A DNA stretch of 34,045 nt from Pseudomonadota bacterium. GTDB lineage: Bacteria > Pseudomonadota > Gammaproteobacteria > Burkholderiales > Rhodocyclaceae. The DNA lies in the NCBI GenBank assembly GCA_021849505.1, contig JAJZSW010000024.1, forward strand, positions 1 to 34,045, given 5' to 3'. Position 1 is the stretch's first letter; each line of letters starts with the position of its first letter. A model generated the notes under the pieces. The model worked only from the letters and a program-made list of their open reading frames with translations. It had not been told where the DNA came from and did not search any database. A program made the position numbers and the translations under genes. Positions 5,406 to 31,402 of this stretch are shown piece by piece.

Positions 5406-6306
5406 ATTTCCGCGTCGCGCTCAGCGCGTTGCTCAAGCGCACGTAGGCATCGACCGGCAGCGTTTCGGCGCGTGCGGTCGGCGCGATGCCCTGCGCCTCC
5501 AGCAAGGACTCGCCGCCGAACTCCTTCAGGGTATTGCGCAACATCTTGCGCCGCTGGGAAAACGCCGCAGCCACCAGGCGGGCGAACAAATCGGGATCCC
5601 GTGCCGTCCTGTCAGCACCGACTTTGTTGGCCCCCCACGCTCGCAACCCCGGCTCGCTGCCCCCCACAGGGGGGGCGTCGGCTTGGGACGGCCCGTCGCC
5701 GACTTTCGCGAAGTCGATGGGGATCATGCGCACGATGGCCGAATCGACCTTCGGCGCCGGATCGAAGGCGCCGGGCGGCACGACGAACAGCCGCTCCATG
5801 TGGAAGCGGTACTGCAGCATCACCGAAAGGCGCCCGTAGTCGCCCGACCCCGGCGCGGCGACCATGCGATCGACGACTTCCTTCTGCAGCATGAAGTGCA
5901 TCTCGGCGACGCGGTCGGCGATCTCGGCCAGGTGGAACAGCAGCGGGCTGGAGATGTTGTAGGGCAGGTTGCCGACGATCTTGAGCGGGCCCGCGCCCTT
6001 GAGCGCGCCGAAATCGAAAGTGAGCGCGTCGCCTTCGTGAATGACCAGCCGCTCGGGCGAAAAGCGTTCGCGCAGGCGCGCGATCAGGTCGCGGTCGATT
6101 TCGACGACATGCAGGCAGTCGATGCGTTCGAGCAACGGAGCGGTCAGCGCGCCGAGGCCGGGGCCGATCTCGACGAGGGTGTCGCCGGCGCGCGGCGCGA
6201 TCACCTCGACGATCTTGCGGATGATGCCGGGCGAAACGAGGAAGTTCTGGCCGAAGCGCTTTCTGGCTCGATGGCCCTGATGGCCATTTAAATCATGCTC
6301 TCTCAT
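5404..6306 (-). CDS. rsmA: 16S rRNA (adenine1518-N6/adenine1519-N6)-dimethyltransferase, with an in-frame insertion
   Basis: RsmA (KsgA) dimethylates two adjacent adenines near the 3' end of 16S rRNA with SAM, late in 30S assembly. The 300-residue product has RKRFGQNFL at 16-23, the SAM site [11 protein letters not shown] at 45-55, the acidic VVEIDRDL at 67-74, the catalytic NLPY at 113-116, and the C-terminal [14 protein letters not shown] at 247-260. The ATG at 6306 overlaps the pdxA stop (ATGA), so the genes are coupled. Residues about 201-235 (KVGDGPSQ through KVGADRTA) are not part of the usual family sequence. They are encoded by about 105 bp bounded by two copies of a dispersed repeat. 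Reading frame and flanking motifs are intact, so the enzyme is probably functional. Confidence 0.96.
5601..5624 (-). repeat. Dispersed 24-bp repeat, copy 1 (in rsmA)
   Basis: Read on the - strand this is AAAGTCGGTGCTGACAGG plus ACGGCA. It differs from the fully matched copies at 16620-16643 and 27785-27808 at three positions. Within rsmA it is read in the frame giving KVGADRTA. Confidence 0.8.
5602..5706 (-). repeat. In-frame insertion in rsmA flanked by repeat copies
   Basis: This ~105-bp block (35 codons) lies between the conserved parts of rsmA. On the rsmA strand it begins with a partial repeat copy (AAAGTCGGCGACGGG, 5706-5692) and ends with a near-complete copy (5624-5601, encoding KVGADRTA). 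Between them is a perfect 7-bp hairpin of C and G runs (5659-5665 with 5670-5676, 4-base loop). The start also has a GTCGGC/GCCGAC pairing around an internal GACG-CGTC dyad. The absence of such a segment from ordinary RsmA proteins is recalled family knowledge, not a computed alignment. Confidence 0.75.
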
Positions 6307-7265
6307 TGCCTGCGTCGCAGTGCCATGTCGATGGCGGCGTCGACCGCGGCGAACAGGCTGGTCGGCGAGGCCTGGCCGGTGCCGGCCAGGTCGAAAGCCG
6401 TGCCATGGTCTACCGAGGTGCGGATGATCGGCAGGCCCAGCGTGACATTGATTCCTTCGTCGAAGGCGGCATACTTGAGCACCGCCAGACCCTGGTCGTG
6501 GTACATGGCGAGCTGGGCATGGGAGCCCGCCAGCACGTTTTTCGTGAACAGCGTGTCGGCCGGCAGCGGACCGACCAGATCCATGCCTGCGGCCCGCAGC
6601 TTTTGCAGCACCGGCGTGATGACCTCGATCTCTTCGCGTCCCATGTGGCCGTCCTCGCCGGCATGCGGGTTGAGGCCTGCCACCAGTATGCGCGGATGCG
6701 CAAAGCCGAACTTCGTGCGCAGATCCGCATGCAGGATGCGGATCGTCGTTTCGAGTTCCTGCGGCGTGATGGCCGCCGGGACATCCTTCAATGGCAGATG
6801 GGTCGTCGCCAGCGCGACGCGTAGCCCCGCGCCCGCGAGCATCATCACGACGCGCGGCGTGCCGGTCTTGCCGGCGAGATATTCGGTGTGGCCGGTGAAG
6901 GGAATGCCGGCATCGTTGATGACGCCTTTGTGCAGCGGACCGGTCACCAGCGCGGCATACTCGCCGGAGACGCAACCCGCCAGCGCCCGGTCCAGCAGCG
7001 CGAGTACATAGCCGGCGTTACGCACGTCCAGCTTGCCGGGTGTACTCGGCGCCGCCAGCGGAGTGTGCAGGATCTCGAGTCCGGCGGTGCTGCGGCCGAG
7101 CAGACGCGCACGCTCCTCGATCAGTTGCCGGTCGCCCAGCACGAGGAGTCGCGCCGGGAACTCGCGCTCAGTCAGCGCCAGGCACAACTCCGGTCCAATC
7201 CCGGCGGGCTCCCCCGAGGTAACGGCAATGACCGGCTTAGCGGTCTTCAAGCCGGTACTCGACAT
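6303..7265 (-). CDS. pdxA: 4-hydroxythreonine-4-phosphate dehydrogenase
   Basis: PdxA is the NAD-dependent, metal-requiring dehydrogenase that oxidises 4-phosphohydroxy-L-threonine in the DXP-dependent route to pyridoxal phosphate. The 320-residue product carries [16 protein letters not shown] at the N-terminus and the metal-binding histidine regions [21 protein letters not shown] and [13 protein letters not shown]. It ends with the characteristic [19 protein letters not shown]. The ATG at 7265 lies inside the 3' end of surA (29-base overlap) and the stop overlaps the rsmA ATG, so lptD-surA-pdxA-rsmA form one transcriptional chain. The same surA-pdxA-ksgA order is known from Escherichia coli. 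A TTG five codons downstream is a less likely start. Confidence 0.97.
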
Positions 7266-8526
7266 AGGCGCGGTCGCGCAGCTGGCGCAGCCAGTCTTCG
7301 TAGGCCTCGTCGGACTTGCGTTCGCGCAGCGCCTGGCGCGCCATCAGGCGCTTGCGCTCGTCGCCGGGCTCGGCATTCTTGCGCTCCAGCACCTGGATCA
7401 GGTGCCAGCCGAAGGGCGACTGCACGGGCGCACTCACTTCGCCGAGCTTGAGCGCATCCATCGCGCGCTCGAAATCCGGCACGGTGTCGCCCTGGTAGAG
7501 CCAGCCCAGGTCGCCGCCCTTGGCGGCAGACAGATCGTTCGAATACAGCCGCGCCAGCTCGGCGAAATCGGCGCCGTTATCGAGCCGCTCCTTGAGTCCC
7601 GCCAGCTTGTGGCGCGCCTCGTCGGACGACACCAGCTCATTGACCTTGATGAGGATGTGCCGTGCCTGGGTCTGCCGGAAGGTACCGCCGACGCTGCCGC
7701 CCTTGCGTTCGAAGAGCCTGACGATGTGGAAGCCCGCCGGACTGCGCAGGATCTCGCTGACCTCGCCAGGCTGGAGCTTCGCCACCGCTTCGGCGTAAAG
7801 CGTCGGCAGGCGATCCACCGGCCGCGGCTCGAGGATGCCGCCCGCCAGCGCATCGGGCGCTTCGGAATAACTGGCCGCGACCTGGCCGAAATCCTGGCCG
7901 GACTTGATGCGGGCGAGCGCTTCCTCGGCCCGCTGGCGCAACTGGCTCAGCCGCGCGGGATCCACCTGCTCGGGTACGCGGATGATGATGTGTCCCAGCG
8001 CGACCAGTGCCGTCTGGTTCGCCTGTTCCGGATGGGCGAGGTAGTTGTCGATCTCGCCATCGGAAACGACGATGCGGCTTTCGACCTCGCGCTCGCGCAA
8101 GCGGGAGAGCGTGATTTCCTCGCGGATCTCCTCGCGGAAGCGCTTCCAGGTGATGCCGTCGCGCTCCAGCGCGGCGCGGAACTCCGCAAGCGACAGCCGG
8201 TTGTTGTCGGCAATGCGGCGCATTGCAGCATCCAGTTCAGCATCGGCGATCCGCAAGCCGCTTTCCCTGGCGAACTGCACCTGCAGGCGATCGACGATCA
8301 GCCGCTCCAGCAGCTGCTTTTCCAGCACCTCGGACGGCGGCAGCGGCGTGCCGCGGCTGCGCAGCTGGCGCGTCACCGTCGCCAGTCGTTCGCGCAGTTC
8401 ATTGAGGGTGATCGCCTCGTCATTGACGACCGCAACGACGCGGTCGACTGCGATCGGCTGGCGCGACTGCGCAATGGCCAGAGCGGGCAGCAGGGTAAAC
8501 AGCGTGATGAGAACTAGTCGCTTCAT
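7237..8526 (-). CDS. surA: Periplasmic chaperone/peptidyl-prolyl isomerase SurA
   Basis: SurA escorts unfolded outer-membrane proteins through the periplasm, LptD being one of its best-known clients in E. coli. The 429-residue protein starts with a cleavable signal peptide (about residues 1-19, hydrophobic, ending ALAIA before QS). Next come the SurA N-terminal chaperone domain (about 25-165) and two parvulin (PpiC) domains at about 174-275 and 286-388, containing GHIIIRVP and ARHILIKV strands and [11 protein letters not shown] and [11 protein letters not shown] ends. A C-terminal helix completes the fold. The ATG at 8526 is 24 bases after the lptD stop; no strong ribosome site is visible. 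Coupling with lptD fits the shared role in outer-membrane assembly. Confidence 0.96.
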
Positions 8527-8550
8527 GGTCGATGATCAGTTTGCGCCGAA

Positions 8551-11412
8551 TCAGTTTTCGCCAAATACCGGATCGGCGGTCGGTTGGTTGATGACGCCGT
8601 AGCCCGGGATGCTGCGGCGCAGGAGCTGCATGGGATTGGACCCGATGCGCGAGAAATCGTTGAGTTCCAGCTGGAAGAAGAGCGCGGTCGTCGGCTGGTC
8701 CGCAATCGTCGCCAGGCGCTGGACGACGAAGCGTCCGACCCAGCAACCGGCATCGTACTCGACGCCGCCGATGATCTCGATGACGCGCCGTTCCTTGGTC
8801 GAGTAGTTGTAGCGTCCGACGCCGTGCCAGCCGCCGGACAGCGGCCATTGCGCCGACACGTCGATCTGGCCGAGCAGATCGCGCGCGTAGCGGTAGCCCG
8901 CATTGACGACCTTGCCCGCTTCGGGACGATAGCGACCGCCGAAGGTCAGTCGTTCGGTACGTTCGTCGCGCGGGTTGTAGAGCCAGCCGATGTCGGCATA
9001 GGTATGCGGCAGCACCTGTCCTGCCAGCGTGGCCAGAATGTCGGCGGCGCGTTCGGTGCGCGCCGTCTCGCCCGGCAGGGTCACGGACTGGTCGCTGAAG
9101 TAGTAGCGCGTACCCAGCGTGGCACGCAGCAGGTCGGCACCGCTGGCGGGATCAAGCAGGCGGGAGGTCACCGCGAGGGTCAGCTCGTTGGCATCGCCGA
9201 TGCGGTCGCCGCCGGCATAGCGGTTTTCCGAGAACAGCTGGGCATAGTTGAAGGCGGTGAGACCGGTATCGAAGACCGGGATCCTGCTCTGGTCGCGGCG
9301 GGGCACATTCAGGTAGTAGGCACGCGGCTCGAGCGTCTGGACCAGCGACTTGCCGAACCAGTCGGTATTGCGCTCCATGACGAAGCCGCCATCGACGCTG
9401 AAGATCGGCAATACCCGGCTCTGGCTGGCGGGCACCCCCGACCAGCTCACGAGACCGTCCTGGCCGGGTCGCTGCAGCTGATCGAGCGAGTACTGCGTCG
9501 AATGGATGCCGATCTTGGGCGTCAGCGAAAACGCCGTGGTGGCCAGCGGCAAGGACAGTTGCGGATACAGCGTCGTGCGCTTGCCGAGCAGGTAGTTCGG
9601 GTGGTCGAAGCTGACGAACTCGGCATTCAGGTTGAACGCGAGACCGAGCGGCAGATCGTAGCGAAACGCGCTGGCGGTCAGTTGCGGCATGCGCCGGTAG
9701 GGTGAGCTCAGGTCGCCCAGCGTCTGGTAAGTCTGGACATTGAGGGCAGCGATATACCATGGGCCGCCATAGGTCAGGATGCCCTGGCGCAGCAGGTTCC
9801 CCTGCGAAACCTGCCCTACGCGCGTGGAGAGGTCGCTGAAGTAATTGTCGTCGGAAACGCCGTTCAGGTTGAGGTTCGCGGTGAATCCCTGTCCCAGATA
9901 CTGGTTGTGCTGGAGCGCATAGCCGTAGCGGTCGCGGCCGGCCACGTTGTCGCCGGGCAGATATTCGAGGCGGATCTGGCCCCTGTCGGGCAAACCCGGG
10001 TTCAGGCGATTCTGCCGGCTGTCGAGCAGGTAGCGGAACTCGGTATTGAGCTGCAGGCCGCGCCGGGACATGAGGCGCGGGGTAATCGTCGCATCCATGT
10101 GCGGGGCGATGTTCCAGTACCAGGGCGCGGTCACCTCGAGGCCGCTCTTGCTGGTCGAGCCGATCGTCGGCGGCAGGAAGCCACTCTTGCGCTGGTTGTT
10201 GAGCGAGAAGCTCATCCAGGGTAAATAGAAGATCGGCGCATCCTTGAAGCTCACGACGGCGCCGCGTCCAGTACCGGTTTCCCTGGTGTAGTCGAGATCG
10301 AGCGCGTCGATGGAAATTTCCCAGTCGCGCTTGCCGGGCGCGCAGGTGCTGTAGGTCGCATCCTCGAGGTGATAGTGATCCTCGCCGCGGAATTCGAGCC
10401 GTTTCGCCACCCCGCTGCCCGTGACCACGGGACGCTCGAGATTCCGGCCGGTCGTCGCCAGCACCTGGCCGCTTTCGCTCATCGCCGGCAGGCCGAGCAG
10501 GGTGAGCGCCGGCTCAAGCACCGGGGCCGGCTTGTGCCTGATGCTGTATGCCGGGGTTTCGAATTCGCCCGTACTTTCCTCCAGGCGCATGCGCAGGCGC
10601 GGGCCGCTGATTTCGGTATCGGGCGATCTCAGGCGGACGTTGCCGATCGCCTCGACCTCGTCGTCGAGTTGGCGATAGACGATCCGGTCGGCGCTGAGTG
10701 TGTCACCGGCCCGCTCGAGCACGACATCGCCCTCTGCGACCAACTCGAAATCGTTGACGCCGTCGATCTTGCGCGCCGTGACATGGGTGGGCGCGGCGTT
10801 CTTGTCGGTGGCGGAAAATGGCGTGGTCGCCGGATGCGGGTAGACGCTGACGACCCTTGCAGCGGGACTATCAGGCAGCGCCACGCGGGCCGCCGGGGCT
10901 GCGGCACTGGCGACAGGGGCCGGCACGGGCGCCGTGGCAGGACGGCCGAGCAAGCCGGGATCCACGCGCAGCGGCGGCAGATTCCGTGCCATGACCGGCG
11001 GAGCGGGACGTGCAGCCGGCGGCTGCGGCACAGGCGCCGCAGCCGGTGCCGCTACCGATTTCTCGCTGGGCGCGGCAACTGGCGCAGCAGCGGGTGAAGG
11101 AGCAGACGCCGGAGCAGCCGGCGTTGCAACTTCCCGCACTGGCGGTGCACCCGCGGTTGATGGTTCGGCAGCCCTGCGCTCCGTTGCGGCCGTCTCGACT
11201 GGCGGCAGGGAGCGGACTTCCATGGCCGGCTCTGCAACGGGTTTCGCGGGCGGTTGCGCCGGCGGCTTCACTGGGGACGCTGCGCCGCCGAGCAGGCTCG
11301 GATCGACCCGCAGCGGCTCGAGCTGGTCCGCGGCAACGGACCCGCCGCAAGCGAGCGCCAGCAGCGTGCCGCCGATGATCCTTCCTCCTTGCCCGAGCCA
11401 TGCCAAAGACAT
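8551..11412 (-). CDS. lptD: LPS-assembly protein LptD with a long Pro/Ala-rich N-terminal linker
   Basis: LptD, with LptE, is the outer-membrane translocon that inserts LPS into the outer leaflet. From the ATG at 11412 the product is 953 residues: signal peptide 1-28 (ending SVAA), an unusual Pro/Ala-rich stretch about 44-200, an OstA/LptA-like beta-jellyroll about 205-295, and a C-terminal 26-strand-type barrel region to 953. The motif PLRVDPxLLG occurs twice, at about 33-42 and 147-156, flanking the low-complexity stretch. The mature part has only two cysteines, C357 (in CAPGKRDWEI, matching E. coli C173 by context) and C890 (GCWVGR), so a single disulfide is expected. An upstream TTG at 11463 is in frame but would spoil the signal peptide. 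It is the first gene of the lptD-surA-pdxA-rsmA operon. Confidence 0.94.
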   Translation of the reverse strand: MSLAWLGQGGRIIGGTLLALACGGSVAADQLEPLRVDPSLLGGAASPVKPPAQPPAKPVAEPAMEVRSLPPVETAATERRAAEPSTAGAPPVREVATPAAPASAPSPAAAPVAAPSEKSVAAPAAAPVPQPPAARPAPPVMARNLPPLRVDPGLLGRPATAPVPAPVASAAAPAARVALPDSPAARVVSVYPHPATTPFSATDKNAAPTHVTARKIDGVNDFELVAEGDVVLERAGDTLSADRIVYRQLDDEVEAIGNVRLRSPDTEISGPRLRMRLEESTGEFETPAYSIRHKPAPVLEPALTLLGLPAMSESGQVLATTGRNLERPVVTGSGVAKRLEFRGEDHYHLEDATYSTCAPGKRDWEISIDALDLDYTRETGTGRGAVVSFKDAPIFYLPWMSFSLNNQRKSGFLPPTIGSTSKSGLEVTAPWYWNIAPHMDATITPRLMSRRGLQLNTEFRYLLDSRQNRLNPGLPDRGQIRLEYLPGDNVAGRDRYGYALQHNQYLGQGFTANLNLNGVSDDNYFSDLSTRVGQVSQGNLLRQGILTYGGPWYIAALNVQTYQTLGDLSSPYRRMPQLTASAFRYDLPLGLAFNLNAEFVSFDHPNYLLGKRTTLYPQLSLPLATTAFSLTPKIGIHSTQYSLDQLQRPGQDGLVSWSGVPASQSRVLPIFSVDGGFVMERNTDWFGKSLVQTLEPRAYYLNVPRRDQSRIPVFDTGLTAFNYAQLFSENRYAGGDRIGDANELTLAVTSRLLDPASGADLLRATLGTRYYFSDQSVTLPGETARTERAADILATLAGQVLPHTYADIGWLYNPRDERTERLTFGGRYRPEAGKVVNAGYRYARDLLGQIDVSAQWPLSGGWHGVGRYNYSTKERRVIEIIGGVEYDAGCWVGRFVVQRLATIADQPTTALFFQLELNDFSRIGSNPMQLLRRSIPGYGVINQPTADPVFGEN

Positions 11413-11473
11413 CTGCGCCGCTTTTCTTGTTGGTGACGCGCCGCGGCGAGGCCCGCAGCGCAAAATAAGCCAA

Positions 11474-11496
11474 TGGTAGAATTTGCAATTCTATCA
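11474..11496. promoter_or_regulatory. Symmetrical face-to-face extended -10 promoters between lptD and amgK
   Basis: The core TAGAATTTGCAATTCTA (11477-11493) is a perfect inverted repeat with 7-base arms. On the + strand it reads TGGTAGAAT (11474-11482), an extended -10 element pointing to amgK. On the - strand it reads TGATAGAAT (11496-11488), pointing to lptD. Predicted start sites would leave about 27 bases of leader for amgK and about 70 for lptD. No convincing -35 boxes are visible, which suits extended -10 promoters. The same palindrome could instead be, or also be, an operator. Confidence 0.55.
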
Positions 11497-11515
11497 TTCG
11501 ACCGGAAATCCTTGC

Positions 11516-12523
11516 GTGGAGCGGATCAAGCAGATTCAGGACTGGCTGGCGTCGCTGTTTCCCGGGCGGACCTTCACGCTCGCCCCGGCCTCGGCGGATG
11601 CCAGTTTTCGCCGCTACCTGCGTGCCTGTTTCGCGGATGGCAGCACCCGTATCGTCATGGACGCCCCGCCGGCCCACGAGGACGTCCGCCCCTGGCTGCA
11701 TGTGCAACAGCTGTTCCGGGCCGCCGGCGCGCATGTGCCCGAGGTGCTGGCGCAGGATGTCGAACGCGGTTTCCTGCTGCTGACCGATCTCGGCTCGACC
11801 ACCTACCTCGCCGCCCTGACGGATGGCGCCGATGCCGACGCGCTCTATCGCGCCGCCCTCGACACGCTGATCGCCATCCAGCGCGTCAGCCGTCCGGACG
11901 CGCTGCCCGCCTACGATCGGGTTCTGCTCAAGCGCGAACTCGACCTGTTTCCCGACTGGTACATCGGCAAGCATATCCCCATCGATTTCGGCGCGACGGA
12001 ACGCAACATGCTCGCAGCCGTGTTCGAGAAAATTATCGCCGTCAATCTCGCCGAGCCTTGCGTATTCGTCCATCGTGACTACCACTCGCGCAACCTGATG
12101 GACGACGGGGATAAACCGGGTGCGCCGGGTGTAATTGACTTCCAGGACGCGGTTTACGGCCCGATCACCTACGACCTCGTCTCGCTATTCAAGGACGCCT
12201 ACATCGAGTGGGAGGAGGAACGCACGCTCGACTGGCTGGCCCGCTACTGGGAGACGGCAAGAAAGGCGGGGTTGCCGGTGCGTGCCGACTTCGGCGATTT
12301 CTTCCGCGACTACGAGTGGATGGGCGTGCAGCGTCACGTCAAGGTGCTCGGCATCTTTGGGCGCCTGTTCCATCGCGATGGCAAGGACGGCTATCTGGCG
12401 AACATGCCACTGGTGGCTAAATACCTGCGCGCCGCCTGCGCCCGCTACGGCGAACTGACGCCGCTGCTGCGTCTGCTCGACAAGCTCGAAAACCGTCAGG
12501 TGCAGGCGGGCTACACATTTTGA
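11516..12523 (+). CDS. amgK: N-acetylmuramate/N-acetylglucosamine kinase (AmgK), aminoglycoside-phosphotransferase fold
   Basis: AmgK phosphorylates the anomeric hydroxyl of MurNAc (and GlcNAc) recovered from peptidoglycan turnover, bypassing de novo UDP-MurNAc synthesis. The 335-residue protein has the APH-family catalytic loop HRDYHSRN at 186-193 and the metal-binding IDFQDA at 207-212, followed by GPITYDLVSLFKDAY typical of this subgroup. I chose the GTG at 11516; the frame is open upstream to a TTG at 11483, but that lies inside the predicted promoter. The gene is divergent from lptD and followed by murU, the arrangement known in Pseudomonas where AmgK and MurU confer a fosfomycin-tolerant recycling route. 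Function is inferred from fold plus this context; a generic small-molecule kinase cannot be excluded from sequence alone. Confidence 0.87.
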   Translation: MERIKQIQDWLASLFPGRTFTLAPASADASFRRYLRACFADGSTRIVMDAPPAHEDVRPWLHVQQLFRAAGAHVPEVLAQDVERGFLLLTDLGSTTYLAALTDGADADALYRAALDTLIAIQRVSRPDALPAYDRVLLKRELDLFPDWYIGKHIPIDFGATERNMLAAVFEKIIAVNLAEPCVFVHRDYHSRNLMDDGDKPGAPGVIDFQDAVYGPITYDLVSLFKDAYIEWEEERTLDWLARYWETARKAGLPVRADFGDFFRDYEWMGVQRHVKVLGIFGRLFHRDGKDGYLANMPLVAKYLRAACARYGELTPLLRLLDKLENRQVQAGYTF

Positions 12524-13402
<879 letters not shown>

Positions 13403-13411
13403 CATCGATTC

Positions 13412-15816: not shown

Positions 15817-15827
15817 GTAGGCAATAA

Positions 15828-15867
15828 GGGGGCGGCAAGCGTTAAAATCCGCCTCCCGCTTTTTTTT
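15828..15867 (+). terminator. Possible terminator between ubiH and dusB
   Basis: An 8-bp stem with one G-U pair (15828-15835 with 15849-15856) and a 13-base loop is followed three bases later by eight T residues (15860-15867). It starts 12 bases after the ubiH stop. The loop holds TAAAAT (15843-15848), which could be a -10 element for dusB, so the stretch may serve both ends. Confidence 0.5.
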
Positions 15868-15885
15868 CCTCCCCCGCCTCCGCTC

Positions 15886-16896
15886 ATGAACTACCTCGGC
15901 TTCCAGCTGCGCAACAACCTGTTCGTCGCGCCCATGGCCGGGGTGACGGACCGGCCGTTCCGCCAGCTCTGCAAGCAGCTCGGCGCCGGTCTTGCGGTAT
16001 CGGAGATGGTCACCTCGAACTCGCTGCTCTACGGCAGCGCCAAGACGCGCCGTCGCGCCGACCATGCGGGCGAGGTGGCACCGATCGTCGTGCAGATCGC
16101 CGGCGCCGATCCCGAGCTGCTCGCCCAGGCGGCGCGCTACAACGTCGAGCGCGGCGCGCAGATCATCGACATCAACATGGGCTGCCCGGCGAAGAAGGTC
16201 TGCAACGTCATGGCCGGCTCGGCGCTGATGCAGAACGAGCCGCTCGTCGCGCAGATTCTTGAGACCGTCGTCGCGGCCGTGCCCGACACGCCGGTTACTC
16301 TCAAATTCCGCACCGGCTGGAACCGCGAAAACAGGAACGCCCCGGTTATCGCGCGCATCGCGCAGGAATCCGGCGTGCGCGCCATCGCCATCCACGGCCG
16401 CACGCGCGCCGACCAGTACATGGGCGAGGCCGAATACGACACCATCGCCGACGTGAAGACGCGCGTGAAGATCCCGGTGATCGCCAACGGCGACATCACG
16501 ACGCCCGAGAAGACGAAGTTCGTGCTCGACTACACCGGCGCGGACGGCGTGATGATCGGCCGCGCCGCACAAGGAAAGCCCTGGCTGTTCCGCGAGATCG
16601 AGCATTACCTCAAGACCGGTGCCGTCCTGCCGGCGCCGACTTTTGCCGAGATCCACGCGATCCTGCGCGGCCACATGGCCGACCTCTATGCCTTCTACGG
16701 CGAAGACACCGGCGTGAAGATCGCGCGCAAGCACATCTCCTGGTACACCAAGGGCATTGTCGGCGCGGCGCGCTTCCGCCATGCGATGAACCAGCTCGAG
16801 GACGTGGCGGCGCAACTGGCCGCCACCGACGAATTTTTCCTCGCTCACTCCAACCACAGCGCGAACGACGCCATTCGTTACATGGAGGCTGCATGA
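15886..16896 (+). CDS. dusB: tRNA-dihydrouridine synthase B
   Basis: DusB is an FMN enzyme that reduces uridine to dihydrouridine in the D-loop region of tRNA. The 336-residue product begins with FVAPMAGVTDRPFRQLCKQL, has the catalytic Cys100 in INMGCPAKKVCN, an FMN-site IAIHGRTRADQYMGEA, IANGDITTPE, and the phosphate-binding GADGVMIGRAAQGKPW. A C-terminal helical domain starts at IARKHISWYTKG. The stop overlaps the fis ATG, the dusB-fis operon known from enterobacteria. The leader directly before the ATG is a pyrimidine run (T8 then C/T-rich) with no Shine-Dalgarno sequence. Codons 245-253 coincide with an exact copy of the dispersed repeat, without changing the usual protein length. Confidence 0.96.
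   Translation: MNYLGFQLRNNLFVAPMAGVTDRPFRQLCKQLGAGLAVSEMVTSNSLLYGSAKTRRRADHAGEVAPIVVQIAGADPELLAQAARYNVERGAQIIDINMGCPAKKVCNVMAGSALMQNEPLVAQILETVVAAVPDTPVTLKFRTGWNRENRNAPVIARIAQESGVRAIAIHGRTRADQYMGEAEYDTIADVKTRVKIPVIANGDITTPEKTKFVLDYTGADGVMIGRAAQGKPWLFREIEHYLKTGAVLPAPTFAEIHAILRGHMADLYAFYGEDTGVKIARKHISWYTKGIVGAARFRHAMNQLEDVAAQLAATDEFFLAHSNHSANDAIRYMEAA
16620..16643 (-). repeat. Dispersed 24-bp repeat, copy 3 (antisense in dusB)
   Basis: Read on the - strand this is base-for-base identical over 24 positions to 27785-27808. On the dusB strand it encodes part of GAVLPAPTF. Protein length around it matches ordinary DusB, so here the repeat does not look like an insertion. Confidence 0.85.
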
Positions 16897-17123: not shown

Positions 17124-17133
17124 GGAGACATCC

Positions 17134-18708: not shown

Positions 18709-18720
18709 GGTCACAGCGTC

Positions 18721-19989: not shown

Positions 19990-20885
19990 TCGATAGCGCT
20001 GCCGTCAAGGCTTATTTCACCGGCCTGCAGGAACGCATTGTCGGAGAGCTGGAACGCTTCGACGGCAAACCCTTCCTGCGCGACGCATGGACACGCCCGC
20101 AGGGCGGCGGCGGCATTTCCCGCCTGATCGAGGAAGGCGACTTCTTCGAACGCGGCGGCGTCAATTTTTCGCACGTCACCGGCGACAGGATGCCCGCGTC
20201 CGCAACCGCGCACCGGCCCGAACTCGCCGGCCGCAGCTGGGAAGCCATGGGCGTCTCGCTGGTGCTGCATCCGCGCAACCCCTACTGCCCGACGACGCAC
20301 CTGAACGTGCGCTGTTTCATCGCGACGAAGGAAGGCGAGGAGCCTGTCTGGTGGTTCGGCGGCGGCATGGACCTGACACCGTACTACGGATACGAGGAAG
20401 ACTGCGCCCACTTTCACCGCACCTGCAAGGCTGCGCTCGAACCTTTCGGCACCAACGTGCATGCGCGTTACAAGAAATGGTGCGACGAATACTTCTTCCT
20501 CAAGCACCGCAACGAGCCGCGCGGCGTCGGCGGCATCTTCTACGACGATCTGAATGAAGGCGGCTTCGCAAGATGCTTCGCGCTGACGCAAAGCGTCGGC
20601 GATCATTTCACCGCCGCCTACCTGCCGATCTGCGCACGGCGCCGCGACACGCCTTACGGCGAGCGCGAACGCGACTTCCAGGCCTACCGGCGCGGGCGTT
20701 ACGTCGAATTCAATCTCGTCTGGGACCGCGGCACGCTCTTCGGCCTGCAGTCGGGCGGGCGCACCGAGGCGATCCTGATGTCGCTGCCGCCGATCGTCAA
20801 GTGGCGCTATGACTGGCACCCGGCGCCCGGTTCGCCCGAGGGAAAGCTCTACAGCGACTTCCTGATTCCGCGCGACTGGAACTGA
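19986..20885 (+). CDS. hemF: Oxygen-dependent coproporphyrinogen III oxidase
   Basis: HemF oxidatively decarboxylates two propionates of coproporphyrinogen III with O2, in the cytoplasm. The 299-residue protein has [92 protein letters not shown] and the C-terminal [19 protein letters not shown] chose the TTG at 19986 because it overlaps the purD stop (TTGA) and places the N-terminus where E. coli HemF begins. No ATG or GTG occurs before the conserved region. The 3' end overlaps the convergent hemY by 37 bases. Presence of HemF implies aerobic haem synthesis. Confidence 0.95.
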
Positions 20886-22096
20886 GGTTTCATGTTCTGG
20901 CACTGGGCCGCCGCGCGATAGTGCCGGTTGGCCTCTTCGGTACGCTCCAGCCGGTCGAACAGCCGCGCCAGCTCGATGTGCCCAGCGCAACTCGGCGCGA
21001 CCGCCAGCGAAGCTTCGAGGAAGCTCTGCGCCTTCCCCCACAGTTGCTGCTGCATGCACAGCCGGCCGAGGGCTAGCAGCAGCACGGCATCCTGCGGATG
21101 CTCGTGCAGCCATTTCTCGCACTGGGCGATGCGCCCGAGCACATCGCCGCCCCGACATTCGGAATACGGCTCCAGCAGGACCGATTCCCAGCGCTCGTCG
21201 AGGCAGTCCTCGATGAGTTGCGCACTTTCCGCACAGTGTCCTGCGGTCGTCAGCGCCCAGGCGGCCCGCAGGGCCAGGCGGGTGTCGAGGCGGTCCGCCG
21301 CGGGCATGTCGCGCCAGAAGCGGGCGAGCTGGACCGGATCGTCCTGCAGGGTATCGAACATGCCGTGATAGGCATGCAGGCGCAGCGGCTGCGCCTGCTC
21401 GGGCAGCAGCACCTTGTGCTTTTCGAGCTGTCGCGCCAGGCGCAGCAGCTCGGTCCAGTCGCCCTGCCCTTGCGCCAGCCGCAAGGCGAAGCGCTGCGCG
21501 GCGACCTGGCGCCGCTCCTTCGTGCCGAGCTGATCGAGCGCGGCGCGCGCCGTCGCGAAATCGCGTGCATCGAGCGCGATGCGAATCTCGGCCATCAGGC
21601 GCGCGGTGCGCCAGCCGGCGGCATCGAGCGCTTCCGCCCGCGCCTGCCAGAAGGCGATGCGTTGCGGGTCGCGCAGCGCGTGCGCGGCCTTGAGCGCGGC
21701 CAGCGCGGCAATCCCTTGCGCATCGCTCACGGCTGCCGTCTCGCCAGCGCCGAGTTTTCCAGCGGCAACCGTCGCGGCGCTCTTCAGTACCTGGCTGTAG
21801 CGCCCCTCCCAGAACGACCGCAGCGCTTCGGCCGCGGCGCGTTCCTTGCGTTGCCGGGCGCGCCGCGCACGGAAGGCATTCACGACCGCGGGCAGGCGCA
21901 GGGTATTCACGATCAGGCGCAGCAGCAGATAGACGAGCAGCAGCGCGGCCAGCTGCAGCAGCACGAAGAGGTTGAGGGAAATCTCGGCGCGCCAGGGCGG
22001 CATCACCCAGAGCACGTAGCCGTCGGTGAGGCGGCCGAGCAGCGTGACGCCGATCGCCAGCGCGGCCAGGGTCAGCAGCCAGAAAAGCGCTCTCAT
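20849..22096 (-). CDS. hemY: HemY-type inner-membrane TPR protein of the hem operon
   Basis: This is HemY in the gamma/beta-proteobacterial sense: a membrane-anchored tetratricopeptide protein at the end of the hemCDX operon, not the FAD protoporphyrinogen oxidase. The 415-residue product has two N-terminal transmembrane helices (about 3-22 and 40-61, [20 protein letters not shown]). A basic HemY_N region follows, then a long helical TPR-like region with repeated Ala-rich helices (for example [21 protein letters not shown]). The ATG at 22096 lies 4 bases after the hemX stop. The molecular role is unproven; a scaffold for late haem enzymes has been proposed. The last ~12 codons are antisense to the end of hemF. 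Confidence 0.9.
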
Positions 22097-22100
22097 GGAT

Positions 22101-23234
22101 TCAGCGTTTCTCGCGCGCCAGCTTGAAGTTGCGCAGCGCGGCAAGGGTTTCGTTCAACTCGACCGGCTCGCGCATCACGTCGAGCCTGATCAGTCCGCGC
22201 AGGGTGGTCTGCGCATCCTGCACCGCCGGCGCCCGGGTATCGAAATACTGTCCGAGCCAGGCATCCGCCTGTTTGAGATCGGTCTGGAAACTGCGGCCGT
22301 CGCGCGCCAGCAGCGCGAGGCGGGCGGACAGCAGGCGCAGGCGCAGGTTCTCGCGCAGGAAGAATACCTCGCGCGGCGCCAGCAGGCCGGGGTCGCCAAT
22401 GCCATGGGTGTCGATGCGCTCGATGCGCACCAGCTGGCGCAGCTCGTGCCAGACTTCGCCGAGCCAGCTGCGCACCATCTGTTCGAAAGTCGGCGATGCC
22501 GGAACGGCACCGGCAGTTTCCCCGCCCGCGATGGCGGGGCTGGAGGTGGGCAGGCCTTTTTTCGGCTGCGGCTCCGCGGCGGGACGCTGCTCGAAGGCCA
22601 GCGGGAGGTTCGGCACGGCGCCGAGCAGGGCGTCGAGCCTGAGCGCGATGCCGCTCACATCGGCGCCGGGCAGTGCCTTGAGACGCTCGATGTCGCGTGC
22701 CAGCAACTTGCGCAGGGGCAGGAACTGCGGCTGGGCGCTCTTGGCGAGCCGGCCATCGGCACCCTGCAGGGCGATCAGCGCCGCCTCGACATTGCCGGCC
22801 AGCTGCAGCTGCTGCGCAGCGATGGCCACGTCCTGTTCGATTTCCGCGAGCAGGCGGTCGTCGCGCCCGCGCGACATGTCCTGATACATCGCCTGCAAGG
22901 CGAGCTGCTGACTCTGCATCTCCGCCAGTTGCGCTTCGAACGCGCCGATCTTGCCTTGCAGCGCGTCGAGCGTCTCGCGATTCTGTTTCGCGTGCGCCAG
23001 CGCTTCGCGCTGTACGGCATCGCTGTCGGCCAAGCGACGCGCCAGTTCCTGACGCGTCGCTTCGACACGTGCGTTGCCCTGCCACGCCAGCCAGCCCAGC
23101 ACCAGCACGCCGAGCAGAGCTAACAGGGTCAGGGCGGCGAGCCAGAGCGCCCATGGCGGCGAGCCTCCCGATTTTTCGGGGACGGGCGGCGGTGAAACGA
23201 GTGCAGGTTTTTCGGTAGGGTGTTCTGCGTTCAT
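22101..23234 (-). CDS. hemX: HemX-type membrane protein (uroporphyrinogen operon)
   Basis: HemX is a single-pass inner-membrane protein encoded with hemC and hemD. The older name, uroporphyrinogen III methyltransferase, is not supported by any SAM motif here. The 377-residue product has a Pro-rich cytoplasmic tail, a transmembrane helix at about 28-51, a coiled-coil stretch to about 120 (QELARRLADSDAVQREAL), then a periplasmic helical domain. A low-complexity linker at about 215-250 (KKGLPTSSPAIAGGETAG) holds a copy of the dispersed repeat and a 7-bp hairpin. The C-terminal half contains FFLRENLRLRLLSARLALL, typical of the family. The ATG overlaps the hemD stop (ATGA). Function is unknown beyond association with haem synthesis. 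Confidence 0.9.
   Translation of the reverse strand: MNAEHPTEKPALVSPPPVPEKSGGSPPWALWLAALTLLALLGVLVLGWLAWQGNARVEATRQELARRLADSDAVQREALAHAKQNRETLDALQGKIGAFEAQLAEMQSQQLALQAMYQDMSRGRDDRLLAEIEQDVAIAAQQLQLAGNVEAALIALQGADGRLAKSAQPQFLPLRKLLARDIERLKALPGADVSGIALRLDALLGAVPNLPLAFEQRPAAEPQPKKGLPTSSPAIAGGETAGAVPASPTFEQMVRSWLGEVWHELRQLVRIERIDTHGIGDPGLLAPREVFFLRENLRLRLLSARLALLARDGRSFQTDLKQADAWLGQYFDTRAPAVQDAQTTLRGLIRLDVMREPVELNETLAALRNFKLAREKR
22486..22539 (+). repeat. Dispersed 24-bp repeat, copy 4, with adjacent hairpin (in hemX)
   Basis: 22486-22509 reads AAAGTCGGCGATGCCGGA plus ACGGCA on the + strand, antisense to hemX, and encodes part of GAVPASPTF there. Ten bases on, CCCCGCC (22520-22526) pairs perfectly with GGCGGGG (22533-22539) across a 6-base loop. 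The region corresponds to a low-complexity linker in the protein. Confidence 0.65.
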
Positions 23235-24013: not shown

Positions 24014-24946
24014 TCAGCCGCCCAGTGCCGCCAGGATTTCGTCGGCGCCCTGGGCGCGCAAGTCGGCGACCAGCGCGAGTCCCAGGGCCTCGGGATCGGC
24101 GGCGGGACCGCTGTGCTCGGCACGGGCGATGCGCGTGCCGTCGGGGGTCGCCACCAGTCCGCGCAGCCGCAGCGTGCCATCGGCATGTTCGGCATAGGCG
24201 CCGAGCGGCACTTCGCAGCTGCCCGCCAGCGCGCGCGAGACGGCGCGCTCGGCGCGCACGCAGGCAGCCGTGGCCGGATCGTTGAGCGGCGCCAGCCATT
24301 GCGCGATCTCGGGTCGGTCGGCCAGCGCCTCGATGCCGAGCGCGCCCTGCCCGGCGGCGGGCAGCGAAGCCTCGGCGGGAAGCGTCGAGCGGATGCGCTC
24401 CTTGAGGCCAAGGCGCGTCAGGCCCGCGGCAGCGAGGATGATCGCATCGTACTGGCCCTCGTCGAGCTTGCGCAGGCGCGTGTCGAGATTGCCGCGCAGC
24501 GAGGAGACGGCCAGGTAGGGAAACATCGCCCGCAGTTGCGCCTCGCGGCGCAGGCTCGAGGTGCCGACCACCGCGCCGGGCGGCAGGTCATCGATGCGCG
24601 CGTACTTGTTGGAGATGAAGGCATCGAGCGGCACTTCGCGCGGGCCGATCGCGACCAGCGCGAATTCGGGCTCGAGCACCATCGGCACGTCCTTCATCGA
24701 ATGGACGGCGATGTCGGCGCTGCGGTCGAGCAGCGCGGTCTCGAGTTCCTTGACAAAGAGGCCCTTGCCGCCCACCTTGGCGAGCGGCCGGTCGAGGATC
24801 TGGTCGCCGCGGGTGGTCATGCCGCGCAGCTCGACGCGGCAGGCCGGATATAATTTCTGCAAAAGGCTGCGCACGTGTTCCGCCTGCCACAGGGCCAGGC
24901 GCGATTCACGGGTAGCGATAACGATGCGTTCAGGGGTAGTGGTCAC
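24014..24946 (-). CDS. hemC: Porphobilinogen deaminase (hydroxymethylbilane synthase)
   Basis: HemC polymerises four porphobilinogens into hydroxymethylbilane on a covalent dipyrromethane cofactor. The product has [32 protein letters not shown], the catalytic Asp in [41 protein letters not shown], and the cofactor-binding Cys in [10 protein letters not shown]. With the GTG start at 24946 the protein is 310 residues and this Cys is residue 244, close to Cys242 of E. coli. That is why I prefer this start to in-frame ATGs at 24973 and 25021. GGAAA lies about 8 bases upstream. It heads hemC-hemD-hemX-hemY and is divergent from ppc with only 10 bases between start codons. Confidence 0.95.
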
Positions 24947-24956
24947 TTGATTTCCG

Positions 24957-27773
<2,817 letters not shown>

Positions 27774-27784
27774 GCCAGTTCACC

Positions 27785-27824
27785 AAAGTCGGCGCCGGCA
27801 GGACGGCATCGGCGCCGACTTTTC
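27785..27824. terminator. Palindromic terminator shared by convergent ppc and pyc, built from the dispersed repeat
   Basis: AAAGTCGGCGCCG (27785-27797) pairs perfectly with CGGCGCCGACTTT (27810-27822) across a 12-base loop. T residues follow on both strands (four on +, three on -). It starts 11 bases after the ppc stop and ends just before the pyc stop at 27828-27830, so it can end both transcripts. Bases 27785-27808 are a full repeat copy identical to that in dusB; the right arm is a second, inverted half copy. Confidence 0.85.
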
Positions 27825-27827
27825 CGG

Positions 27828-30800
27828 CTACTCGAACTCGACCAGCAAGTCCTTGGCGTTCACCGCCTCGCCATGGCGGCAGTGGATCGCCTTGACGACG
27901 CCAGCACGCTCGGCGGTCAGCATGGTCTCCATCTTCATCGCCTCGATGGAAACGAGCGGGTCGCCTTTCGCCACCTTCTGACCGACCTGGGCAGCGACGG
28001 TGGCGATGGTACCCGGCATCGGCGCGCCGACATGCCTCGGATTGCCGTCCTCCGCTTGAGGCTTGGCCTTGGGGTTGGCGAGGCCGGCCTTCGGCACGCG
28101 GATCACGCGCGACTGGCCGTTGAGTTCGAAGAAGACCTTGACCATGCCTTCCTCGTCCGGCCCGGCGGTACCCTGCTGCGAGATGATCAGGTTCTTGCCG
28201 CGTTCGAGGTCGACGGTGATTTCCTCGTTCTGCTGCAGGCCGTAGAAGAAAGCCGGCGTCGGCAGCAGCGAGACATCGCTGTAATGGGTGCGGTGCGTCG
28301 CGTAGTCCCGGAACACCTTCGGGTACATCAGGTAGGACGCCAGGTCGTTGTCGTCGATCCTGCGGCCGGTCGCCTTCTCGGCCTCGACGCGCTTCGCCTC
28401 GAGATCGACCGGCGGCAGGAAATCGCCGGCGCGGCCCGCCAGCGGCTGTTCCCCTTTCAGGACCTTCTTCTGCAGCTCGGCCGGAAAACCGTCGGCCGGA
28501 AAACCCAGCTCGCCCTTCATCAGCGAGATGACGGAATCGGGGAAGGCGATCTCGCGCGCCGGGTTCCTGACGTCTTCCGGCGTCAGTCCATGCGCGACCA
28601 TGAACAGCGCCATGTCGCCAACGACCTTGGAGGTCGGCGTCACCTTGACGATGTCGCCGAACAGCAGATTCACGTCCGCATAGGCTTTGGATACCTCGCC
28701 CCAGCGATGCTCGATGCCCATCGCGCGCGCCTGCTCGCGCAGGTTGGTGTATTGGCCGCCGGGCATCTCGTGGCGATAGACGTCGGCCGTGCCCGAGCGG
28801 ATGTCCGCCTCGAAGGGTGCATAGGCACGGCGTACGCCTTCCCAGTACTGCGAGAGGCGCTGCATGGCATCGAGGTCGATGCCGGGATCGCGCTCGCTGC
28901 CGGCCAGCGCCGCGGCGATGGAGCCGAGGTTGGGCTGCGAGGTCAGGCCGCTCATCGCGTCGAGCGCGCCATCGACCACGTCGCAGCCGGCCTCCACGGC
29001 GGCCAGCACCGAGGCCGCGGCGATGCCGCTGGTGTCGTGGGTGTGGAAGTGGAGCGGCAGCCCAACTTCCTGTTTCAGGGCCGTCACCAGCGCGCGGATC
29101 GCACGCGGCTTGCAGACGCCCGCCATGTCCTTGATCGCCAGCATGTGCGCGCCGGCCTTCTCGAGCTGCCTGGCGAGGTCGATGTAGTACTTGAGGTTGT
29201 ACTTCGGCCGCGCCGCATCAAAGATATCTCCTGTATAGCAGACGGTCGCCTCGCAGATCGCGCCGGACTCGATCACCGCGTCCATCGCGACGCGCATGTT
29301 GTCCACCCAGTTGAGCGAGTCGAAGACGCGGAAGACGTCGATGCCTTCCGCCGCCGCGCGCTGCACGAAAAAGCGCACGACGTTGTCGGCATAGTTGGTG
29401 TAGCCAACCGCGTTCGAGGCGCGCAACAGCATCTGGAACAGCACGTTCGGCACCGCTTCGCGCAGGCGTGCGAGGCGTTCCCACGGATCTTCCTTGAGGA
29501 AGCGCAGCGCCACGTCGAAGGTGGCGCCGCCCCAGCATTCGAGCGAGAACAGGCCGGGCAGCATGCGCGCGTAGTGCGGGGCAATCTCCGTCAGGTCGTG
29601 GGTGCGCATGCGCGTGGCGAACAGGCTCTGGTGCGCGTCGCGCATCGTCGTGTCGGTGAGCAGCACCCGCTTCTCGTCGCGCACCCATTCGGCGAACTTC
29701 TTGGCGCCGACCTGGCGCAACCGGTCGCGCGTGCCGGCCGGCGGCACGGCGGACAGATCGCAGGCCGGCTTGATCGGTTTCGCGATCGGCAGCGGCGGCA
29801 GGGCGCGGCCCTTCATCTCCGGGTTGCCATTCACCATCACGTCGCCGAGGAAGCGCAGCAGGCGCGTGGCGCGGTCGCGACGTTTGTTGAATGTAAACAG
29901 CTCCGGCGTCTCGTCGATGAAACGCGTCGTGCATTCGCCCGACAGGAACAGTGGATGGGCGATGACGTTCTCGAGGAACAGCAGGTTGGAGGACAGTCCG
30001 CGCACGCGGAACTCGAGCAGCGCGCGCGCCATGCGGCGCGCCGCCTCGTCGGAGGTGTGACCCCAGGCGGTGACCTTGACCAGCAGCGAATCGTAGTAGG
30101 GGGTGATGACCGCACCGGAGTAGGCGGTGCCACCGTCGAGGCGGATGCCGAAACCGGCCGGGCTGCGATAGACGTTGATGCGGCCGTAGTCGGGCGTGAA
30201 ACCGTTCTCCGGATCCTCGGTGGTGATGCGGCATTGGACCGCATGGCCGTTGAGCCTGATCTCGCTCTGCCAGGGCACGTAGGAGTCCGCATCGCCGACG
30301 CATGCGCCTTCGGAGATGCGGATCTGCGCCTTGACGATGTCGACGCCGGTCACCATCTCGGTAACCGTGTGCTCGACCTGGATGCGCGGGTTAACCTCGA
30401 TGAAGTAGAACTGGTCGGTGTCCGCATCCATGAGGAACTCGACCGTGCCGGCGTGCGTGTAGTTGGCGGCGCGCGCGAGCTTCAGTGCGGCTTCGCAAAG
30501 CTGGTCGCGGCGTTCGGCGGAGAGGTAGGGGGCCGGTGCGCGCTCCACCACTTTCTGGTTGCGACGCTGCACCGAGCAGTCGCGCTCGAACAAGTGCACG
30601 AGGTTGCCGTGGGTGTCGCCCATGATCTGTACCTCGACGTGACGCGCGCGGCGTACCAGCTTTTCGAGATACAGCTCGTCATTGCCGAAGGCGGCCGCCG
30701 CCTCGCGGCGCGCCACGTCCATCGCCGGGCCGAGATCGTCTGCGGTCTCGATGACGCGCATGCCGCGCCCGCCGCCGCCCCAGCTGGCCTTGAGCATCAG

Positions 30801-31271
30801 CGGATAGCCGACTTCAGCGGCAAGCTTCTTCGCGCCGTCCAGGTCGCGCGGCAGGGCGCCAGTGGCCGGCACGACGGGCACGCCGGCCTTCTGTGCAAGT
30901 TCGCGCGCCGACACCTTGTTGCCGAGCAGGCGCATCACTTCCGGCTGCGGGCCGATGAAGGTGATCCCCGCCTTCTCGCAGGCTTCGGCGAAATCGGGGT
31001 TCTCGGACAGGAAGCCATAGCCCGGATGGATCGCATCGACCTTTGCTTCCTTGGCAATGCGGATGATGTCTTCGATGTCGAGATAGGCGGCAATCGGTTT
31101 CTTGCCGGCACCGACGAGGTAGGACTCGTCAGCCTTGAAGCGGTGCAGGGCGAAGCGGTCTTCGTTGGAGTAGATGGCGACCGAGCGGATGCCCATTTCG
31201 CTGGCGGCCCGCAGGACGCGAATGGCGATTTCGCTGCGGTTGGCGACAAGAAGCCTGCGGATCTGTTTCAT
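27828..31271 (-). CDS. pyc: Pyruvate carboxylase (single-chain)
   Basis: Pyc is a biotin enzyme that carboxylates pyruvate to oxaloacetate with ATP and bicarbonate. The 1147-residue chain holds all parts in the usual order. Biotin carboxylase spans about 1-450 (LLVANRSEIAIRVLRAASEM, ASWGGGGRGMRVIE, FIEVNPRIQVEHTVTEM). Carboxyltransferase spans about 530-800 (LLTDTTMRDAHQSLFATRMR, the lysine in MLAIKDMAGVCKP, metal-binding HFHTHDTSGI). The allosteric/linker domain follows, then the biotinyl domain with Lys1113 in EAMKMETM. Length matches the single-chain alpha4 type. The ATG at 31271 is preceded by a C/T-rich leader without a Shine-Dalgarno sequence. Both this enzyme and Ppc being present suggests flexible anaplerosis. 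Confidence 0.97.
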   Translation of the reverse strand: MKQIRRLLVANRSEIAIRVLRAASEMGIRSVAIYSNEDRFALHRFKADESYLVGAGKKPIAAYLDIEDIIRIAKEAKVDAIHPGYGFLSENPDFAEACEKAGITFIGPQPEVMRLLGNKVSARELAQKAGVPVVPATGALPRDLDGAKKLAAEVGYPLMLKASWGGGGRGMRVIETADDLGPAMDVARREAAAAFGNDELYLEKLVRRARHVEVQIMGDTHGNLVHLFERDCSVQRRNQKVVERAPAPYLSAERRDQLCEAALKLARAANYTHAGTVEFLMDADTDQFYFIEVNPRIQVEHTVTEMVTGVDIVKAQIRISEGACVGDADSYVPWQSEIRLNGHAVQCRITTEDPENGFTPDYGRINVYRSPAGFGIRLDGGTAYSGAVITPYYDSLLVKVTAWGHTSDEAARRMARALLEFRVRGLSSNLLFLENVIAHPLFLSGECTTRFIDETPELFTFNKRRDRATRLLRFLGDVMVNGNPEMKGRALPPLPIAKPIKPACDLSAVPPAGTRDRLRQVGAKKFAEWVRDEKRVLLTDTTMRDAHQSLFATRMRTHDLTEIAPHYARMLPGLFSLECWGGATFDVALRFLKEDPWERLARLREAVPNVLFQMLLRASNAVGYTNYADNVVRFFVQRAAAEGIDVFRVFDSLNWVDNMRVAMDAVIESGAICEATVCYTGDIFDAARPKYNLKYYIDLARQLEKAGAHMLAIKDMAGVCKPRAIRALVTALKQEVGLPLHFHTHDTSGIAAASVLAAVEAGCDVVDGALDAMSGLTSQPNLGSIAAALAGSERDPGIDLDAMQRLSQYWEGVRRAYAPFEADIRSGTADVYRHEMPGGQYTNLREQARAMGIEHRWGEVSKAYADVNLLFGDIVKVTPTSKVVGDMALFMVAHGLTPEDVRNPAREIAFPDSVISLMKGELGFPADGFPAELQKKVLKGEQPLAGRAGDFLPPVDLEAKRVEAEKATGRRIDDNDLASYLMYPKVFRDYATHRTHYSDVSLLPTPAFFYGLQQNEEITVDLERGKNLIISQQGTAGPDEEGMVKVFFELNGQSRVIRVPKAGLANPKAKPQAEDGNPRHVGAPMPGTIATVAAQVGQKVAKGDPLVSIEAMKMETMLTAERAGVVKAIHCRHGEAVNAKDLLVEFE

Positions 31272-31312
31272 GGCGGGAAGGAGGGAGATAAGAAAATGCT
31301 GAATTACCCGCG

Positions 31313-31318
31313 ATTCTA
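31313..31318 (-). promoter_or_regulatory. Possible -10 element for pyc
   Basis: TAGAAT on the - strand, about 42 bases upstream of the pyc ATG, matches the -10 hexamer found at lptD, amgK and hemC. It lacks the TG extension and I see no -35 box, so this is weak. The rest of the 143-base spacer 31272-31414 holds repeat copy 6 (31379-31402) and no gene. Confidence 0.35.
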
Positions 31319-31378
31319 ATAGGGCATTGCACCACCAGGGCGGTTTTTAGTCCTTTGGCTTCCGAAACTTACCTCTGG

Positions 31379-31402
31379 TGCCGTTCCGCCGGCGCCGACT
31401 TT
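31379..31402 (-). repeat. Dispersed 24-bp repeat, copy 6 (downstream of algR)
   Basis: On the - strand this reads AAAGTCGGCGCCGGCGGA plus ACGGCA, with two differences from the fully matched copies. It begins 12 bases after the response-regulator stop. It is a single copy without an inverted partner, so it does not form the long hairpin seen between ppc and pyc. Confidence 0.8.

Follow-up and report, generated by a model that had tools for sequence, protein, structure and literature searches.

We analyzed a stretch of 34,045 nucleotides from a Pseudomonadota bacterium of the family Rhodocyclaceae (GenBank assembly GCA_021849505.1, contig JAJZSW010000024.1, positions 1 to 34,045 of the forward strand), referred to here as the window, and focused on a dispersed repeat of about 24 bp, AAAGTCGGCGCYGGCRGGACGGCA, which we call the word. 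The original prediction, made from the letters of the window, had listed six copies of this repeat. All six exist, although the first starts at 5602 and not at 5601, and we found a seventh, AAACTCGGCGCTGGCGAGACGGCA, that had been missed. Genes in the window were called with our own gene caller and named by family searches. The copies, together with one hairpin built from the word, are located as follows.

5602..5625, minus strand: word copy in ksgA (about 5404-6306, minus strand), read in sense, frame 0, as the peptide KVGADRTA
13127..13150, plus strand: word copy in murU (about 12689-13402, plus strand), read in sense, frame 0, as KVGAGGTA, in a length-variable loop
16620..16643, minus strand: word copy in dusB (15886-16896, plus strand), antisense, frame 2, giving GAVLPAPTF; an ungapped substitution relative to word-free relatives
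21734..21757, minus strand: the seventh word copy, in hemY (20849-22144, minus strand), read in sense, frame 0, as KLGAGETA, in a length-variable loop
22486..22509, plus strand: the weakest word copy, in hemX (about 22101-23234, minus strand), antisense, frame 2
27785..27808, plus strand: intergenic word copy flanked by two convergent stops, that of phosphoenolpyruvate carboxylase (27773, plus strand) and that of pyruvate carboxylase (27828, minus strand)
27785..27823, no strand assigned: hairpin formed by the word and an inverted left half, with T-rich ends; RNA fold of -30.1 kcal/mol, z -3.4 on the plus strand and z -3.0 on the minus strand
31379..31402, minus strand: intergenic word copy just past the point where a gene for a LytTR response regulator (31415-32185, minus strand) ends

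At up to three mismatches the word matches the window seven times, and 100 dinucleotide shuffles gave no match. The copies at 16620 and 27785 are identical. Those at 13127 and 31379 differ from this pair at two positions, the copy at 5602 at three, the seventh at four, and the hemX copy at five, in agreement with the earlier tally for the first six. Two of the seven are intergenic and five are genic (ksgA, murU, dusB, hemY, and hemX), four of the latter being among the six listed before. The word is in sense and frame 0 in ksgA, murU, and hemY, and antisense in frame 2 in dusB and hemX, as expected from the proposal that at least two frames and both orientations are used. Direct reading of the unit also bears out that it contains no stop codon in any of the six frames.

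The word is abundant throughout the source genome (G000; 161 contigs totaling 2.75 Mb, completeness 94%). It occurs in 403 copies at up to three mismatches to AAAGTCGGCGCCGGCAGGACGGCA, 216 forward and 187 reverse, and in 504 copies at up to three mismatches to AAAGTCGGCGCTGGCGGGACGGCA. The reversed word gave 0 copies. The count is above chance, and protein motifs do not explain all copies, so that the refuting check named in the original prediction did not refute it. Near-matches exceed the reversed control in a graded fashion. A 387-kb sample of G000 holds 85 copies at up to four mismatches to the degenerate word, or about one per 4.5 kb, a density that may be a little high because the sample was drawn from contigs with known hits; the control in the same sample showed no match below six mismatches. 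Strand bias was not significant in any of three counts (216/187 in G000, 227/226, and 146/159). The sequence logo has sharp borders at 24-25 bp, with A or G ahead of the word and C favored after it, a preference that fades at once. Two blocks are strongly conserved, TCGGCG at positions 4-9 and ACGGCA at positions 18-23, whereas conservation is looser in the center (positions 15-17) and at position 3. Each block contains CGGC, in the same orientation and 14 bp apart.

Across the order, 20 of 399 sampled genomes had any match, and counts above 40 were confined to the source genus and a single genome from a second genus of the family. In a family-level sample of 395 genomes from 68 genera, 148 genomes, distributed over 44 of the genera, had a match. 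Genomes with more than 100 copies fall into six genera, namely the source genus and g5, g159, g166, g192, and g215; genus g159 reaches down to 12 copies (G628), and elsewhere the maximum is 22 (G419). The complete genome G150 contains 453 copies. Within the source genus, 18 of 19 genomes carry 122-661 copies. The remaining one, G633 (87% complete), carries none, shows no match under six mismatches and no obvious substitute word in 120 kb, and represents a natural case of loss, or of never having gained the word, within the genus. At least one other genus has a dialect: the most over-represented 12-mers in G439 (genus g199) spell AAAGTCGACGCTGG, followed by a looser ...ACGGTG. Among the matches listed, contigs with exact matches are mostly labeled Rhodocyclaceae, with some Sulfuritalea, Sulfurisoma, Azonexus, Casimicrobiaceae, Betaproteobacteria, and Gammaproteobacteria; the closest named stretch to G000 among them is labeled Sulfuritalea sp. 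(89.5% over 6.6 kb).

To examine the word at orthologous sites, we compared 400 kb each of the genus-mates G020 (L154-L163, L194-L203) and G150 (L164-L173, L204-L213), which are 88% identical over a 265-kb alignment. The codon-position, within-alignment, and flank-anchored tests cover copies with up to three mismatches. Third codon positions within the word differ at 24/310 sites for the G150 copies (n = 39) and at 18/272 for the G020 copies (n = 34), or 7-8%, compared with 519/2196 and 456/1950 (23-24%; P about 4e-12 each) within 90 nt beside the word. The two directions are not independent, as they have sites in common and the copies were picked for matching in one genome. First and second codon positions within the word differ at 44/619 and 33/542 sites. 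If protein conservation were the cause, third positions should vary more freely. They instead vary as little as the other two, and the constraint therefore lies on the DNA and not on the protein.

Of the 97 copies in G150, 63 fall within genes predicted by our own gene caller and 26 between genes, where 10.4 would be expected (P 9e-6); the other 8 overlap a gene end. The 78 G020 copies comprise 56 genic, 7 straddling, and 15 intergenic ones (8.5 expected, P 0.03). Convergent spaces are enriched among the intergenic copies (9/26, P 0.003, and 6/15, P 0.001). All six frames are used, unevenly (P about 5e-6 and 7e-6), with frame 0 in sense being the commonest; common readings are KVGAGETA-like, AVPSAPTF-like, and KSALAARH-like, and rare ones are ESRRWRDG and VPSRQRRL. 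Given the six frames, the intergenic sites, and the constrained third positions, the earlier claim that identity in unrelated genes does not stem from protein conservation holds. In the two related genomes, copies are spaced more evenly than expected at random, with a coefficient of variation of 0.65 in G150 and 0.67 in G020 (simulation P 2e-4 or less).

Copies change mainly by substitution in place. Among copies mapped inside alignments, the net length change is zero at 43/46 in G150 and 38/41 in G020. In five G150 and three G020 cases the partner no longer matches; most of these differ by substitutions and slight shifts, and one is a clear deletion. Because alignment breaks could hide insertions from this test, the flanks were also anchored separately. 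After exclusion of copies without collinear flanks (22/78 and 11/60), the length difference was zero at 39/56 and 35/49 copies and 24 bp at none. We further assembled a broader set, 152 site pairs in all, drawn from 108 copies and limited to copies with up to two mismatches and to pairs whose unaligned flank did not exceed 40 nt. In this set, 85 pairs have no length difference and one has a difference of -24, at murU between G020 and G684; at the same gene, G515 and G684 differ by 18. The word is absent in 33 of the 152 pairs, 8 of them without a length difference and the others scattered. At dusB, TGELLPPPLV-like residues of word-free genera are replaced by the word with no gap. Based on these length comparisons and on the dusB, murU, and hemY sites, copies arise and decay chiefly through point substitution in place, and through insertions and deletions in loose regions.

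The number of perfect copies differs between the two genus-mates, with 5 in G020 and 16 in G150 (400 kb each). G020 has more copies with two or three mismatches, as if the word were decaying there.

These properties suggest that AAAGTCGGCGCYGGCRGGACGGCA is probably a third DNA-uptake-signal system, present in part of the Rhodocyclaceae. The word, preferably with A or G before it and C after it, would serve as a genome-wide recognition tag for natural transformation. A surface DNA receptor, perhaps a minor pilin of the type IV pilus, would bind it, and DNA from kin would thereby preferentially enter the cell and recombine. Over successive rounds of such biased import, better-matching variants would be favored, and existing near-matches would drift to the word by point mutation wherever protein or intergenic DNA tolerates it. 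The receptor, the uptake, and the drive itself are inferred. We further hypothesize, with somewhat more reserve, that this is a third self-recognition code beside those of the Neisseriaceae and Pasteurellaceae, with a two-block signal of 24 bp and a genus dialect, which some close relatives lost or never gained and whose candidate receptor need not be a pilin of the ComP family.

Uptake signals have been described for the Pasteurellaceae and the Neisseriaceae, and excerpts of one source present their common root as debated (PMC12616744). In the excerpted text of four sources (PMC1939737, PMC3630211, PMC2346458, PMC1852404), the DNA uptake sequence (DUS) and the uptake signal sequence (USS) of these families occur in hundreds to thousands of copies and originate by point mutation. 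Many copies are genic (H. influenzae, 65%; N. gonorrhoeae, 35%), and non-coding DNA has an excess of them. Even spacing, lineage dialects, and graded near-matches are described as well, and there is no general bias in orientation. Like the Neisseriaceae DUS, the word is non-palindromic, has many copies in and between genes on both strands, and has lineage dialects, and its hosts are labeled betaproteobacteria and possess ComEC, DprA, and a minor pilin of the ComP_DUS family; the reversed word opens with TGCCGTC, as does ATGCCGTCTGAA in the excerpted source. It differs from the DUS, which is 10-12 bp long, in having 24 bp and two conserved blocks, fewer copies, and rare inverted pairs. In addition, the CTG core of the DUS given in the excerpt of PMC3630211 is not conserved in the word logos, and the T of the core falls on the variable R position. 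With the Pasteurellaceae USS, as excerpted, the word shares coding and non-coding copies, an orientation/frame bias, a point-mutation origin, and, in two of three genomes, even spacing; it differs in sequence, in having fewer copies, and in having few inverted pairs. As the trait set is DUS/USS-like, the DUS core is missing, and terminator pairs are rarer, we propose the word as an uptake signal in its own right and not a DUS dialect. An AAAGT-like start is common to the word and the USS, which is probably coincidence.

Competence genes are present. ComEC was found in 45/46 and DprA over the cut-off in 44/46 of the genomes chosen, among them both carriers and word-free ones, and the ComP_DUS pilin family (PF16732) in 55/60 genomes, word-bearing or not, but in 0/14 control genomes. 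In G000, the PF16732 pilin heads a minor-pilin cluster with genes of the GspH, PilW, and PilY1 families. In an alignment of pilins from 21 genomes, read without the rows of G672 (wrong frame) and of G515 and G502 (paralogue-like), the ComP-like pilin of G633 resembles that of G000 and shows nothing special.

Several observations weigh against an uptake signal. ComEC, DprA, and the ComP_DUS pilin are equally present in word-free relatives and do not separate carriers from non-carriers, so that we rejected them as markers of the word; G633 has all three yet not one copy of the word, and no PF16732 match was obtained in G439, which has the dialect, or in G527, which has 392 copies. The copy number is also lowish, with 29 exact matches to the degenerate word in 387 kb of G000, whereas an excerpted source on DUS and USS gives 1,000 or more as the general number for such signals. 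An inverted half lies near a copy in 3/84 cases in the G000 sample, and in 0/78 and 0/97 in a stricter test, while inverted pairs among DUS and USS are put at about 10% in the excerpt of PMC1939737 and at high numbers in that of PMC3630211. Even spacing is not significant in G000 (coefficient of variation 0.86, P 0.25). Copies per 10 kb in shared versus unshared DNA amount to 2.5 versus 2.2 in G150 and 2.3 versus 1.3 in G020, which indicates no clear avoidance of lineage-specific DNA. At the level of single sites, 5 of the 33 pairs lacking the word come from dusB compared with G633, as do 5 of the 8 among them without length change; the murU and hemY copies occupy loops that many relatives have in shorter form; and 54-62 bp insertions or deletions at some G020/G150 sites stem from a compound form of the word (described below), some units of which occur in only one of the two genus-mates. 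Finally, searches of an open-licence library, which holds few subscription papers and no preprints, listed no report of natural transformation or uptake sequences in this family. For AAAGTCGGCGC itself, only plant papers were listed. The uptake-signal-like nature suggested in the original prediction agrees with most sequence-level diagnostics tested.

If the word is indeed an uptake signal, a third system in another bacterial family would provide an independent replicate, with genomes that have the word, lack it, or speak a dialect, some of them within one genus. Such variety would allow a direct comparison of how these codes start, drift, and die, and of the protein that reads them. Gene exchange among these mostly uncultured bacteria would then be preferentially with kin, and putting the word into constructs would suggest itself for transformation attempts.

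The main rival, which we regard as unlikely, is an architectural or maintenance site, where a sequence-specific chromosomal protein with a role in nucleoid organization, repair, or replication would bind the word at many spread places. Even spacing in two genomes, the constraint on DNA within genes, and lineage restriction are expected for such a site as well. Unlike Chi and the FtsK orienting polar sequences (KOPS), however, the word shows no significant strand polarity; its absence from G633 and its genus dialect would be odd for an essential organizer, and it is long and not palindromic. The excerpted text of PMC1939737 credits Karlin and colleagues with proposing such a role for DUS and USS, given their even spacing.

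A tiny mobile element appears rather improbable. It would resemble repetitive extragenic palindromes (REPs) moved by REP-associated tyrosine transposases (RAYTs), or Rickettsia palindromic elements, and would insert either as 24 bp or as a compound of 54 bp, with single words as footprints. The compound consists of AAAGTCGGCGCTGGCGGAAATNANNNCGTCCCGCCGGGCGCCGACTCACCTCGN followed by the full word, that is, word, inverted half, TCACCTC, and word. The G020 sample yielded three units and the G150 sample seven, spread over six sites, and a similar compound lies on a named contig (L032). The G150 units include the following.

L172, about 9042-9145, G150: compound unit in tandem, the one such case
L173, about 8030, G150: compound unit
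L211, about 14095, G150: compound unit

The existence of this compound, its presence or absence as 54-62 bp at several G020/G150 sites, and the murU differences of exactly 24 bp (G020 versus G684) and 18 (G515 versus G684) speak for a mobile element. The compound is flanked by direct words. Units could be gained or lost through slippage or recombination between these words, with one word left behind. A 24-bp difference occurs in 1/152 pairs and in 0/105 flank-anchored copies, a total in which copies of G020 and G150 overlap, and copies are gained and lost mostly by substitution in place. The tiny mobile element of the original prediction is therefore not supported for the 24-mer, and we rejected insertion of a whole unit, as in a Rickettsia-like mini-element, as the main route, with murU the one 24-bp case. 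The constrained third codon positions are likewise unlike a dead footprint. Y1 (RAYT-type) transposases (PF01797) were detected in 14/36 genomes, including 4/15 of the source genus, but no match was obtained in the word-rich genomes G000, G020, G150, G515, and G547; because several word-rich genomes are without the transposase, REP/RAYT was rejected as the general cause. The word resembles REPs and bacterial interspersed mosaic elements (BIMEs) with RAYT in being a dispersed short repeat with a rare compound that contains an inverted half and in one case is in tandem. It differs from them in that single words are non-palindromic, mostly genic, and changing by substitution; folded with their flanks, four single words gave z values of -0.7, -2.0, 0.5, and 0.3 against shuffles, three of the four being no better. 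Rickettsia palindromic elements are longer palindromic insertions. The word is similarly tolerated in proteins in several frames, but insertion is not its main route.

Transcription terminators or RNA-level elements are a very improbable explanation of the word as a whole. The long hairpin at 27785-27823 is good and is likely a bidirectional terminator; the enrichment of convergent intergenic spaces points the same way. Most copies lie inside genes (63/97 and 56/78), three of four single words fold like shuffles, and the rarity of inverted partners (3/84) led us to reject a terminator role as a general explanation. The proposed pairing of copies into terminators thus applies to 27785-27823 (z = -3.4) and is rare otherwise. 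Within 24957-31271 of the window, the convergent genes for two anaplerotic enzymes, phosphoenolpyruvate carboxylase and pyruvate carboxylase, have this one word-built, terminator-like hairpin in common.

Conservation of a protein motif (KVGAG.TA), for which the prevalence of frame 0 in sense could speak, and chance have next to no probability, being refuted by the use of all six frames and of intergenic DNA, by third codon positions as conserved as the others, and by reversed-word and shuffle controls that give 0.

Two further observations concern sequences beyond the word-bearing genomes. In the word-free genus g163 (G403; L224-L228, L186), another word, TTGTGGGAGCGGCGGCCT, and its neighbors are over-represented and resemble a classical REP family; GCGCATGCGC is likewise over-represented in G403. 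Among IMG/VR viral contigs (L234-L285), 52 stretches contain one or two exact copies of the word each, which may be host flanks, prophages, or phage genes.

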